Shown here: piece by piece, positions 3,849 through 7,502 of the stretch | How positions within the stretch are numbered: the first letter of the stretch is position 1 | Layout of the letters: every line of letters begins with the position of its first letter | Source: a virus | Reading direction: 5' to 3' (one strand) | IMG/VR virus record: IMGVR_UViG_2209111020_000005 | Location: 1 to 50,338 of that record | Length of the DNA stretch: 50,338 bases | The notes under the pieces: generated by a model | Told to the model about the DNA's origin: nothing | Database searches by the model: none | Seen by the model: only the letters and a program-made list of their open reading frames with translations | Translations under genes and position numbers: made by a program

Positions 3849-4208
3849 ATGAGACATAAATCTCGATTAATTTTTGATATTGTACTTATATCCGCCGTCC
3901 TGCTCGGCCTTTTTTCATCGGCTTATTACGCTTTTGGAAAACCGCTATCCATGCGCCATGCGGTATACCGTGTCTTTAACGACAGGGTTGACCGCTATAG
4001 TGTTAGCAATAAAAAGCTAACCGTCGTTACCGACAATTTTGGCTGGGATGGATCCGGCTGGTCAAAAAAGCAGGCCATCCGAGATGGAAAGCGCCAGATT
4101 GAAAAGCTGACTTCCGTCCTCCCGGAATTTGGGCAGCAGATTGACCGGGTAGAAATAACGGTTACCTACCTGAAGCAGCCTGTAATGATGCAATCAATCG
4201 ATAATTAA
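3849..4208 (+). CDS. Membrane-anchored small protein, candidate moron
   Basis: Starting at ATG 3849 behind GGTGAT (a GTG three codons earlier is also possible), the 119 residues have an N-terminal signal-anchor (about 7-30, LIFDIVLISAVLLGLFSSAY) and then an extracytoplasmic domain. I recognise no family. The gene is the only plus-strand gene between the lysis and tail modules, so it opposes the transcription around it. It has a hairpin terminator just upstream and converges with the 69-residue gene, overlapping its stop by 4 bp. This is the setting of a moron expressed from the lysogen. TAAAAT at 3827-3832 could be its -10 box, but I see no good -35. Confidence 0.55.
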   Translation: MRHKSRLIFDIVLISAVLLGLFSSAYYAFGKPLSMRHAVYRVFNDRVDRYSVSNKKLTVVTDNFGWDGSGWSKKQAIRDGKRQIEKLTSVLPEFGQQIDRVEITVTYLKQPVMMQSIDN

Positions 4209-4414
4209 GGGCTGCCAGGCGGGCTGTCCGTTATCACTAATTCGCGCGTCTCAACCCCTATTAAAATTTTATCTCCTTGATCTATTGGCGCCGACTGCAT
4301 AATATACTGCGCCGCTTGATCAAAATCTGGAATATCCGCATATTCAATAGGTTTGTATCCGGCCAGCTTAGCTGAGTTTAGCTGTAAAATTCCGTTTTGG
4401 ATAATACCGTACAT
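4205..4414 (-). CDS. Small tail-region protein of unknown function
   Basis: The 69-residue protein begins MYGIIQNGILQLNS and contains 'GYKPIEYADIPDFDQ' and 'KILIGVETREL'. Similar short acidic proteins are common just after tail-fibre genes of Lactobacillales and Bacillales phages; their function is not known. The ATG follows AAAGGTGGTGAGCG and lies inside the 3' end of the reverse transcriptase gene (47-bp overlap), so it is co-expressed with the DGR. It lacks the basic, helix-bundle look of an Avd protein. Confidence 0.65.
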   Translation of the reverse strand: MYGIIQNGILQLNSAKLAGYKPIEYADIPDFDQAAQYIMQSAPIDQGDKILIGVETRELVITDSPPGSP

Positions 4415-5438
4415 TAACGCTCACCACCTTTCTTGCTATTTTAATTCGTGCCACCGGCTGGACGATGCAATGATAAAACTGATAGCTGTCCGTGCGTTTC
4501 AGCCATCCCCAGTGCGAGATCACCGCACAGGCGTCAGAATAATTGAGATAGCCTTTTTTCTGTATCTTGCTGACACGCCGCCGGATTCGCAATGAGTTAC
4601 GTTTTCGGAGCGTTGACTTATCCCGGTAAAAGCGGATGCCGAGAAAATCAATATCCCGACAGTCCAGGCGGAACACCTGCCAGTTACTCTTTATCTGCAG
4701 CTTAATGCCGGTGAGATACTCAGAGACTGCCTGCTGCGTCCGATGAAGTTTTTTCTTATTCGAACAAAGCATCACAAGGTCATCAACATATCGAACATAA
4801 TACTTAACCCCTAGTTGCTCCTTAATAAAATGATCGAGATCCTGCAAGAAAAAATTAGCGAACCACTGGCTGGTATAAAATCCAATTGGTTGGCCTTTGT
4901 TCTGGTCGATAATTTGATCAATAAGCCAGAGACAATCAGAATCTTTAATTAACTGACGGAACCGCTGTTTTAGTAGATCATTGTCAATTGACGGATAAAA
5001 TTTATGGATATCCATTTTTAGACAATATTTCGTATTTCGTCGGTCATTGTCTATCCACTTACGCAGCGATTTCTGCGCGTAACTTGTCCCTCGTTCGGGG
5101 ATGCTTCCGCAGCTGTACTCATACATGCCATGCATAATCATCGGCTCGAGTTGCAGCATAAGCGCCCAGTGGATGATTTGATCCGGATAAAAGTTCGGTT
5201 TATAAATCGTCCGCTCCTTTCCACTTGTGCCATCGTTGATAACCCTGATCTGCGGGGTGCTCGGTTGATACGTCTTAGCTTTAAGCATCTGCTGTAACTT
5301 GCCTGCGTAGCTGTCCGCGTTGTCTAATACTTTTTTAACCCGTTTCTGATTCCGCTTACCAAGCGATGCTTTCTGCATTGCGAGTTTAATATTCTCAGTG
5401 TCACAAACCTTTTCGTATATAAAGCCGTATCGTTTCAC
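4368..5438 (-). CDS. Reverse transcriptase of a diversity-generating retroelement
   Basis: The 356-residue RT copies the TR RNA into adenine-mutagenised cDNA that replaces VR. Motifs in order: KERTIYKPNFYPDQIIHW (about 75-92), DIHKFYPSID (about 143-152, first catalytic Asp), GQPIGFYTSQWFANFFL (about 182-198), which has the G-x3-SQ motif 4 typical of DGR RTs, and the YVDD catalytic box in YVRYVDDLVML (about 216-226). It has neither the maturase nor the endonuclease domains of group II intron proteins, and is the usual length for a DGR RT. The ATG follows AAGGTGATTCGCC. It lies about 120 bp after TR on the same strand, in the order target-VR-TR-RT seen in characterised elements. No Avd gene is recognisable next to it. 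Confidence 0.93.
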   Translation of the reverse strand: MKRYGFIYEKVCDTENIKLAMQKASLGKRNQKRVKKVLDNADSYAGKLQQMLKAKTYQPSTPQIRVINDGTSGKERTIYKPNFYPDQIIHWALMLQLEPMIMHGMYEYSCGSIPERGTSYAQKSLRKWIDNDRRNTKYCLKMDIHKFYPSIDNDLLKQRFRQLIKDSDCLWLIDQIIDQNKGQPIGFYTSQWFANFFLQDLDHFIKEQLGVKYYVRYVDDLVMLCSNKKKLHRTQQAVSEYLTGIKLQIKSNWQVFRLDCRDIDFLGIRFYRDKSTLRKRNSLRIRRRVSKIQKKGYLNYSDACAVISHWGWLKRTDSYQFYHCIVQPVARIKIARKVVSVNVRYYPKRNFTAKLS

Positions 5439-5560
5439 GGCGAATCACCTTCTTATTAGCCTCAAGGACTTTCGACAATACTACTTGTCCTTGCTCTTTA
5501 CGGCGAATTTTCACCAAGCGGTGCGGATGATAGGGTGCAATATATCTTTAAATTTCCTAA
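5439..5560 (-). other. DGR spacer between TR and RT
   Basis: This stretch of about 120 nt has no gene apart from the RT ribosome binding site. In the Bordetella phage DGR a similar-length spacer after TR is needed for cDNA priming; the position and size here suggest the same role, but I infer this from layout only. Confidence 0.45.
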
Positions 5561-5671
5561 TAAGAGTCTGCCTGCCGATATTGACATTCGAGTTCCACGA
5601 AGGATTGTTCAGATTCCAGTTAGACAATCCAGCGTTCAAACCATTGTTCCAGCCCGCGCCAACGCGGGCAA
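5561..5671 (-). repeat. DGR template repeat (TR)
   Basis: This 111-bp stretch is near-identical to the 3' end of the fibre gene (5761-5872), offset by exactly 200 bp at one end and 201 bp at the other. On the coding strand it is loaded with AAC/AAT codons (an Asn-rich virtual peptide GWNNGLNAGLSNWNLNN), which is typical of TRs because AAY codons diversify without creating stops. Over 5567-5671 all 18 substitutions relative to VR fall on TR adenines (18 of 25 adenines changed; about 80 other bases unchanged; counted by hand). One extra mismatch, C in TR versus T in VR on the coding strand, lies at the 3' edge (5566). TR has no ribosome binding site and is not itself a gene. Confidence 0.93.
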
Positions 5672-5719
5672 AGCACGCACCCCATAACCCGGTATTTATT
5701 TTTATACTCATCAAAGACC

Positions 5720-5741
5720 TTGGGGGACTTACGTCCCCCAA
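5720..5741 (-). other. DNA hairpin/cruciform downstream of VR
   Basis: TTGGGGGAC (5720-5728), a 4-nt loop (5729-5732) and GTCCCCCAA (5733-5741) make a perfect 9-bp GC-rich stem. It lies about 20-40 bp past the 3' end of VR on the coding strand and before TR. The Bordetella phage DGR needs a hairpin of nearly the same shape (8-bp stem, 4-nt loop) just after VR for efficient retrohoming. No T tract follows on the minus strand, so a terminator is less likely. Confidence 0.75.
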
Positions 5742-5759
5742 ACCCCCTAAAGAGCCTTC

Positions 5760-7502
5760 CTAAGAAGCCGCCCGCCGATAGCGACATACGAGTACCACGA
5801 AGGACCGGTTCAGAAGCCAGTCAGACAAGCCAGCGCCCAAACCATCGAACCAGCCCGCGCCAACGCGGGCAATAAACTGCCCAGAGGGATTTTGCCAGTG
5901 ATAGTCAGAGTAATAACTAGAATCGTTTCCGCCCAAGACAGTCGGCAACTGAACATAAGGATGATCTGGGTCAAAGCCCATGTCTTTAACAAATCCATTA
6001 GCATGTACATTTTCATAGCCGATGGATTCATAAGGACTGGCAAAAACGTTACTTGCATAGTCATCCGCATTTTTAGCAACCCATGACCTTCCATTGTTGA
6101 TATTTAATCCGTCAACAAACGTCCATGTACTACCAAACGGATTTTCAATTCCGCGATAGACGCATGGGTATTTCCCGTCGTTCGCTACTATTCCGCCGCT
6201 TTCTGCAAGGATATTTTTGCTAAATCCTGTTTTCCATCCGCCGTTGTAAACCACTTTCCCTGCCGATATATCTACCGGATCGCCATCAAAAATAAGGGCT
6301 TTGTTACTTGCGTCATAGTCCTCAATTGCCGTGATCGACCGGTCATAAAAAACCTGAACCCCGTTTACATCGTTTCCGATATTTATCGGCTGGCCTACTC
6401 GATAATTCTGCGCCCGACTACTTTCAATAATCGCCCGATTTGTCTGTGTTTCGCCAACTGTGATTACGTCACCATTATCTCGCCTGCCGCCCGTCCAACC
6501 AGCCAAAACCGACTGTGAGTTAAGCGTCGCAAATTCGGTATGGAAAAGTGTTGCTAAGATGTCATGTGCATGCAGGTCGTACTGCTGATAACCTTTTAAC
6601 CCGTTTATATTATTCGCGCGGGAATAATTTCGAAAATCAATGATATTTTTTTGCACAAGCGGGTACTTATCCGGTTTTGACTCCAGCTTGCCATCGGCGG
6701 ACAGCGAAGCTTTATGTTTCGCAAAATCAAAATAGTCAAGTTCCCTGCCATTTTCAAAATCCCAAAAACACCAGGGCAGATAAAAACCCGCATGCTTTGT
6801 CTCTGATACTTGTTCCTGCAAAAAGCCAGGTCCACTCTGCCGCCTGATATAAAATTTAGGTATCCGCCTAAACACGTTGCCATAACTATCCTTAGCGTCC
6901 TCAATCTCGCCCCAGATCGGTAGGTGGTCAAAATCGTTTTTCACCAGCTGACCATCTATGCCGACAGCCGACTGTAAGCCTACAGCAGAGTCCGTCCGCG
7001 TCATGGTCGGGCTTGCTGTTTTATCCCAGTAAGCTCCATAGATGGCCTCTTTATAGGTTAGTAGGTGGATACTATTAATCTTGTCGATCAGGTCGCTGAC
7101 ATACGCTGCAGACTCTGTATTGATGGTCGTTGCATCGCTTACTACCTTAAACGGAATATTAGGCGTAGACATGCGGGACGTTTTGCCAAACGTATCTGTT
7201 TTTTCAAACACAAAATAGGCTGTTCTGATATTGCCGAGCGTGGCAAAGGACTCCTTTACCAGCGTACACTCTACTTTCCCAGCAGCAGCATCTGTAATCG
7301 TCGCGCCTTGCCTGATATAGTACCAAGCTGGCGTGACGCACTCAAACAGGGGCGTGATCCCGGTCAGATCAACAGGAACGCCGTCCTGCATGATCTGAGC
7401 GCTAAATGTATTAGTATCAAAATCGTTTCTGCGGACCTCAATACGCGGAATATTGGCCCGACCGTTAAGGTCGAGCTTCATGCTGAAAACTTTATTAGCC
7501 AA
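5760..7502 (-). CDS. Receptor-binding tail fibre, DGR target (BppU-like N-terminus, lectin-fold C-terminus)
   Basis: I chose TTG 7502 (580 aa): GGAGG lies 9 nt upstream, while ATG 7481 is 28 nt away and the longer frame to 7583 overlaps the previous gene. The N-terminus (DLNGRANIPRIEVRRNDFDT onward, about 10-110) resembles the BppU/baseplate N-terminal domain that fixes the fibre to the tail tip. The last ~250 residues resemble the formylglycine-enzyme/C-type-lectin fold used by DGR targets, ending in the VR (IARVGAGWFDGLGAGLSDW). The protein would bind the host surface, and the DGR would vary its binding face. One extra base in VR shifts the last ~15 residues to SFVVLVCRYRRAAS; without it the frame reads PSWYSYVAIGGRLLRKAL and stops at 5747-5749, matching the conserved end of the fold. 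Confidence 0.85.
   Translation of the reverse strand: MANKVFSMKLDLNGRANIPRIEVRRNDFDTNTFSAQIMQDGVPVDLTGITPLFECVTPAWYYIRQGATITDAAAGKVECTLVKESFATLGNIRTAYFVFEKTDTFGKTSRMSTPNIPFKVVSDATTINTESAAYVSDLIDKINSIHLLTYKEAIYGAYWDKTASPTMTRTDSAVGLQSAVGIDGQLVKNDFDHLPIWGEIEDAKDSYGNVFRRIPKFYIRRQSGPGFLQEQVSETKHAGFYLPWCFWDFENGRELDYFDFAKHKASLSADGKLESKPDKYPLVQKNIIDFRNYSRANNINGLKGYQQYDLHAHDILATLFHTEFATLNSQSVLAGWTGGRRDNGDVITVGETQTNRAIIESSRAQNYRVGQPINIGNDVNGVQVFYDRSITAIEDYDASNKALIFDGDPVDISAGKVVYNGGWKTGFSKNILAESGGIVANDGKYPCVYRGIENPFGSTWTFVDGLNINNGRSWVAKNADDYASNVFASPYESIGYENVHANGFVKDMGFDPDHPYVQLPTVLGGNDSSYYSDYHWQNPSGQFIARVGAGWFDGLGAGLSDWLLNRSFVVLVCRYRRAAS
5761..5872 (-). repeat. DGR variable repeat (VR)
   Basis: This is the 3' end of the fibre gene and the partner of TR at 5561-5671. 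The 5' 23 bases on the coding strand are identical to TR; divergence is confined to template adenines, for example AAC to TTC, AAT to GAT, AAC to GGC and AAT to CTT. It is 112 bp against 111 in TR because of one inserted base near 5805-5808, where the coding strand reads AACCGGTCC and TR reads AACAATCC. The GC-rich block next to the stop codon is where an IMH (initiation of mutagenic homing) site would be expected. Confidence 0.93.

Follow-up and report, generated by a model that had tools for sequence, protein, structure and literature searches.

The 50.3-kb virus record that we analysed as a whole (the window) contains, on its minus strand, a genuine and well-preserved diversity-generating retroelement (DGR) aimed at a tail-fibre-type protein. 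We make this assignment because the phylogeny of the reverse transcriptase (RT), the pattern of differences between template repeat (TR) and variable repeat (VR), the IMH, the hairpin and the relatives of the locus all agree. It is very probable that this is a phage DGR working by mutagenic retrohoming, with the tip of the fibre as the part that is varied. In the order of transcription the fibre gene (7502-5760), ending in the VR, is followed by the hairpin, a short gap, the TR, a spacer and the RT gene (5438-4368). A preliminary description made from the letters of the DNA had called the element complete. The RT, TR, VR, IMH and hairpin are indeed all present, but no homologue of the accessory protein Avd was found, and the VR allele as recorded is out of frame.

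The phage and its reverse transcriptase

The record carries genes for an integrase, a terminase, a portal, a tape measure protein, a holin and a GH25 lysin, and is therefore the genome of a temperate siphophage. No relatives at the DNA level were found in the phage collection. Elsewhere in the window an antitoxin-like gene with a SocA/Panacea domain (1327-1890) adjoins a membrane protein gene (392-1342), and the two are a possible toxin-antitoxin or defence pair.

The RT gene (4368-5438, minus strand) has a GTG start and encodes 356 amino acids, including the YVDD motif and the sequence PIGFYTSQ, so that an RT with YVDD and a DGR-type SQ motif, as previously noted, is borne out. It has an RVT_1 domain and falls in the reverse transcriptase PHROG category. 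Its best solved relative is 8ub7 (E 8e-23), the printed sequence of which matches that of bRT from BPP-1. Besides the RTs of the window and BPP-1, our tree includes 20 others of DGR type taken from related loci, together with four of the group II class and two that are unassigned. The DGR RTs lie on one side of a branch with support of 100/99, and the window RT lies in the DGR clade with BPP-1, closest to three RTs of related loci (L002, L003 and L007) with which it is 65-70% identical. The deep part of this tree is soft, with long-branch outgroups, but the placement of the window RT is firm. A phylogeny against group II intron RTs had been proposed as a check on the preliminary description, and the RT is separate from them.

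It is exceedingly improbable that the RT belongs to a different class (group II intron, retron or Abi/DRT) and that the repeat beside it is due to chance. Generic RT profiles do match it, but where group II RTs have the motif PQGGxxSP the window RT carries PIGFYTSQ, and it scores far below the cut-offs of the NCBIfam group II and retron models (including TIGR04416). We reject a group II, retron or DRT identity on the tree together with these scores, and the adenine bias described below and the repetition of the same architecture in the relatives argue further against a chance association.

A small open reading frame of 69 amino acids (4205-4414, minus strand) overlaps the end of the RT gene and is kept in more than 10 relatives. 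We considered it as a substitute for Avd and judged this unlikely; a homologue also adjoins a related fibre at locus L079, where no RT was detected in 5.1 kb. It is probably a tail gene, and is not clearly part of the DGR.

Adenine-specific variation at the end of a tail fibre gene

The TR (5561-5671, minus strand, 111 nt) lies between the target gene and the RT gene, and the VR (5761-5872, minus strand, 112 nt) forms the last part of the fibre gene. Each is found once in the window, and a search across the window for a second VR found none. This is as the preliminary description had it, with a 111-bp TR and a near-identical VR at the 3' end of the fibre gene, except that its hand count had overlooked one extra base in the VR. 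Within the 95-nt core upstream of the IMH, 15 of the 22 template adenines are substituted in the VR by G, T or C, while none of the 73 other bases is changed (hypergeometric P = 1.5e-12). The last 16 nt are GGCAGGCAGACTCTTA in the TR (the IMH*; 5561-5576, minus strand; a pattern that occurs once in the window) and GGCGGGCGGCTTCTTA in the VR (the IMH; 5761-5776, minus strand), and they differ by three adenine changes and one C/T change. The same differences recur in the relatives, and these are therefore IMH*/IMH differences rather than new mutations. Thus the adenine-only substitution claimed earlier stands, as 15 of 22 in the core, whereas three of the 18 changes then counted among 25 adenines belong to the IMH*/IMH pair.

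The same TR/VR pattern is present at about 40 related loci. At one of these, a metagenome contig (L009, 3419-3529), every N in the assembled VR stands opposite a template adenine, which is what a population with many VR alleles should give on assembly.

The target gene (5760-7502, minus strand) has a TTG start and encodes 580 amino acids as recorded. The protein has a BppU_N domain at its N-terminus, it matches tail-protein PHROGs, and its 3' coding end is the VR. A C-type lectin fold did not emerge from AlphaFold models, which are poor both for this fibre (pLDDT 50) and for that of the closest relative (pLDDT 42), and the fibre alignment, searched as a profile against the PDB, gave no match. 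A C-terminal pattern of glycine and arginine is common to 15 DGR targets, and the target of one distant relative matches the second domain of Mtd. The fibre presumably binds the host, and the prophage may currently be switching receptors, our comparison covering one VR allele of this phage. In one of the nearest relatives (L007, 5246-5677) the fibre frame through the VR is open for 143 amino acids only; the upstream part of that fibre may lie in another frame or be broken.

A covarying helix around the template, and the absence of Avd

The RNA between the TR and the RT gene corresponds to the Rfam family RT-18 (RF03021; 5449-5523, minus strand), with a full-length match of 67.9 bits (gathering score 41.3). 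All ten relatives searched have the same match. In addition, the sequences just before and just after the TR can be joined by a helix of 14 bp. Its 5' strand (5676-5691, minus strand) reads CGGGT and then TGGGGTGCG, and its 3' strand lies at 5524-5539 (minus strand), both being placed by alignment and pair counts. In an alignment of 18 loci 97.6% of cells are paired, and at eight of the 14 base pairs both partners have changed. Over all three helices of the structure the paired share is 98.6% of cells, compared with 38-47% when the partners are slid. This structure was derived from the alignment's own consensus, and the count is biased towards it to that extent, but the compensatory changes at eight pairs are still strong. 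Comparable pairings of the TR flanks occur in some of the loci that are more distantly related (L013, L018, L020 and L026). Judged from sequence, the helix would likely serve to bring both ends of the TR to the RT.

A hairpin or cruciform lies 19 nt past the VR (5720-5741, minus strand). It has the sequence TTGGGGGAC-GTAA-GTCCCCCAA, with a perfect stem of 9 bp (0/300 shuffles). Similar stems are present in most relatives, with loops that vary. The hairpins of phage DGRs have been placed 4-34 bp from the VR, with stems of 7-10 bp and a loop consensus of GRNA (PMC3240598). The distance and stem of the window hairpin are within these ranges, but the GTAA loop does not fit GRNA, a consensus that summarises the phage DGRs of that study and is not required of a DGR.

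We found no bAvd (PF22296) in the window or in ten relatives, including the LBR48 record, some of these contigs being fragments; the same search finds PF22296 in BPP-1. PF05635 was also not found. Avd is present in the majority of DGRs but not in all, and DGRs lacking it have been noted before in phages of Firmicutes (PMC5883640). The Avd-less type is thus already known from these phages, and the window locus is one more case. We infer that this DGR needs no separate Avd. A more elaborate proposal, which we regard as unlikely, is that of an Avd-less class in which the TR helix and the RT-18 spacer do the job of Avd, while +1 slips of the RT at AAC switch the fibre off and rewriting restores it.

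Two rumen phage contigs (L027 and L028, 5410-5834 in each) have a TR that is split by an identical insert of 285 nt (5486-5770). The insert is absent from both VRs, which lie at 5053-5192. Once it is removed, the only differences between TR and VR are at adenines (21/32 in one contig and 18/32 in the other, with 0/108 other bases). The two TRs also differ from each other by a C/T change, and each VR carries the base of the TR in its own contig. These two observations suggest that, after the insert arrived, a spliced template was used for retrohoming. The insert is intron-like. It folds strongly (z -4.2), as in group I introns it is preceded by T and has G as its last base, and P3/P7-like pairings can be drawn by hand; there is no Rfam match and none to RF00028. 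The 24-nt core that we searched for occurs in these two contigs only. Within the open-access literature, a body that leaves most subscription journals uncovered, we found no description of a TR-bracketing helix or of an intron within a template repeat. Another record, filed as a 42.7-kb plasmid of Apilactobacillus apisilvae (L062), has an RT 50% identical to that of the window adjoining a lysozyme gene, and it looks like a phage-plasmid or an extrachromosomal prophage.

The extra base, the proposed mechanism and known systems

The extra base of the VR lies within 5805-5808 (minus strand), its exact position being ambiguous; the TR reads CTGAACAATCC and the VR reads CTGAACCGGTCC. It shifts the frame of the fibre, so that the recorded protein ends with LLNRSFVVLVCRYRRAAS before the stop codon while the alternative frame of the same DNA ends with GPSWYSYVAIGGRLLRKAL. 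In all 12 of the closest relatives the fibre C-terminus is GGRLL(K/R)K(A/P)L or a near match to it, and this ending is lost from the fibre as recorded in the window. The related fibre at L079, which has no RT detected next to it, likewise terminates in GGRLVRKAL, and the ending therefore looks to be required by the fold, not by the DGR. With the recorded VR allele out of frame, the conserved last strand should be missing from the fibre as recorded. Unless the extra base is a sequencing error, this copy of the fibre thus probably does not function before it is rewritten.

Two origins of the extra base are the simplest, and both are compatible with the DGR explanation. The chances are about even that it is an error of sequencing or assembly and that the real fibre is in frame. 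The base falls in CC/GG doublets and has no unique position, the alternative frame restores the ending GPSWYSYVAIGGRLLRKAL of the intact relatives, and there is no indel in any of about 40 ungapped TR/VR pairs of relatives; yet accurate reads do not typically go wrong at doublets, and the remainder of the locus is open. It is less likely, though quite conceivable, that the base is real and arose when the DGR RT used the template cytosine of an AAC a second time and did not regain register, in which case later retrohoming can overwrite the out-of-frame VR. A slippage model proposed for bRT of BPP-1 has the RT re-use the template cytosine at AC/ACC, leaving an insertion if register is not regained (PMC12875486), and both the site and the added base (C after AAC) fit this model. 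Moreover, the TR is undamaged, and the insertion, with substituted adenines beside it, falls within the tract that is rewritten. Against this, there is one allele only, and the same study proposes that register is normally restored, the AAC-repeat indels cited there having been explained by slippage in multiples of three.

The out-of-frame target and the lack of Avd might instead indicate a decayed DGR in a defective prophage, with the repeats as relics. We consider this improbable. The RT open reading frame, the TR, the RT-18 RNA, the bracketing helix, the IMH and the hairpin are all kept, the VR core has accumulated no non-adenine substitutions, and Avd is missing from the relatives as well.

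For the mechanism of mutagenic retrohoming that we favour, we observe the anatomy, the kinship of the RT, the adenine-only substitution, the shared IMH/IMH* differences, the covarying helix and the hairpin. The RT is presumably active. The RT-18 spacer and the helix that closes both flanks of the TR would keep the TR RNA bound to the RT. The RT would then copy the TR RNA into cDNA, placing random bases opposite adenines, and this cDNA would replace the VR at the IMH and hairpin, varying the tip of the fibre. Further retrohoming from the intact TR could overwrite the out-of-frame VR allele.

DGRs are a natural route to varying a binding protein while keeping its scaffold. The window adds a well-anatomised case that lacks Avd and has a covarying helix around the template, and its VR allele may show how the DGR process fails. 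The general picture of DGRs is unchanged.

The Rfam RT-18 match begins just after the TR-bracketing helix, which is not included in the family. Among named phages, Lactobacillus phage LBR48 has an RT 55% identical to that of the window and in the same RT clade, with RT-18 RNA found and Avd not found. Faecalibacterium phage FP_Epona has an RT of 31% identity, also in the same clade, and Avd was not found there according to PMC5883640. Both differ from the window in having other target genes, and the one-base VR insertion is the window's. Compared with the DGR of Bordetella phage BPP-1 (bRT, Avd and Mtd), the window has no Avd gene, its target has BppU_N at the N-terminus, its hairpin loop is GTAA rather than GRNA, and its TR is 111 nt rather than 134; the TR-bracketing helix of the window is not evident in BPP-1. 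Yet the two are alike in the kinship of their RTs, in a TR that lies between the target and the RT, all on one strand, in adenine-only substitution, in the IMH/IMH* difference, in the hairpin after the VR and in a fibre-type target.
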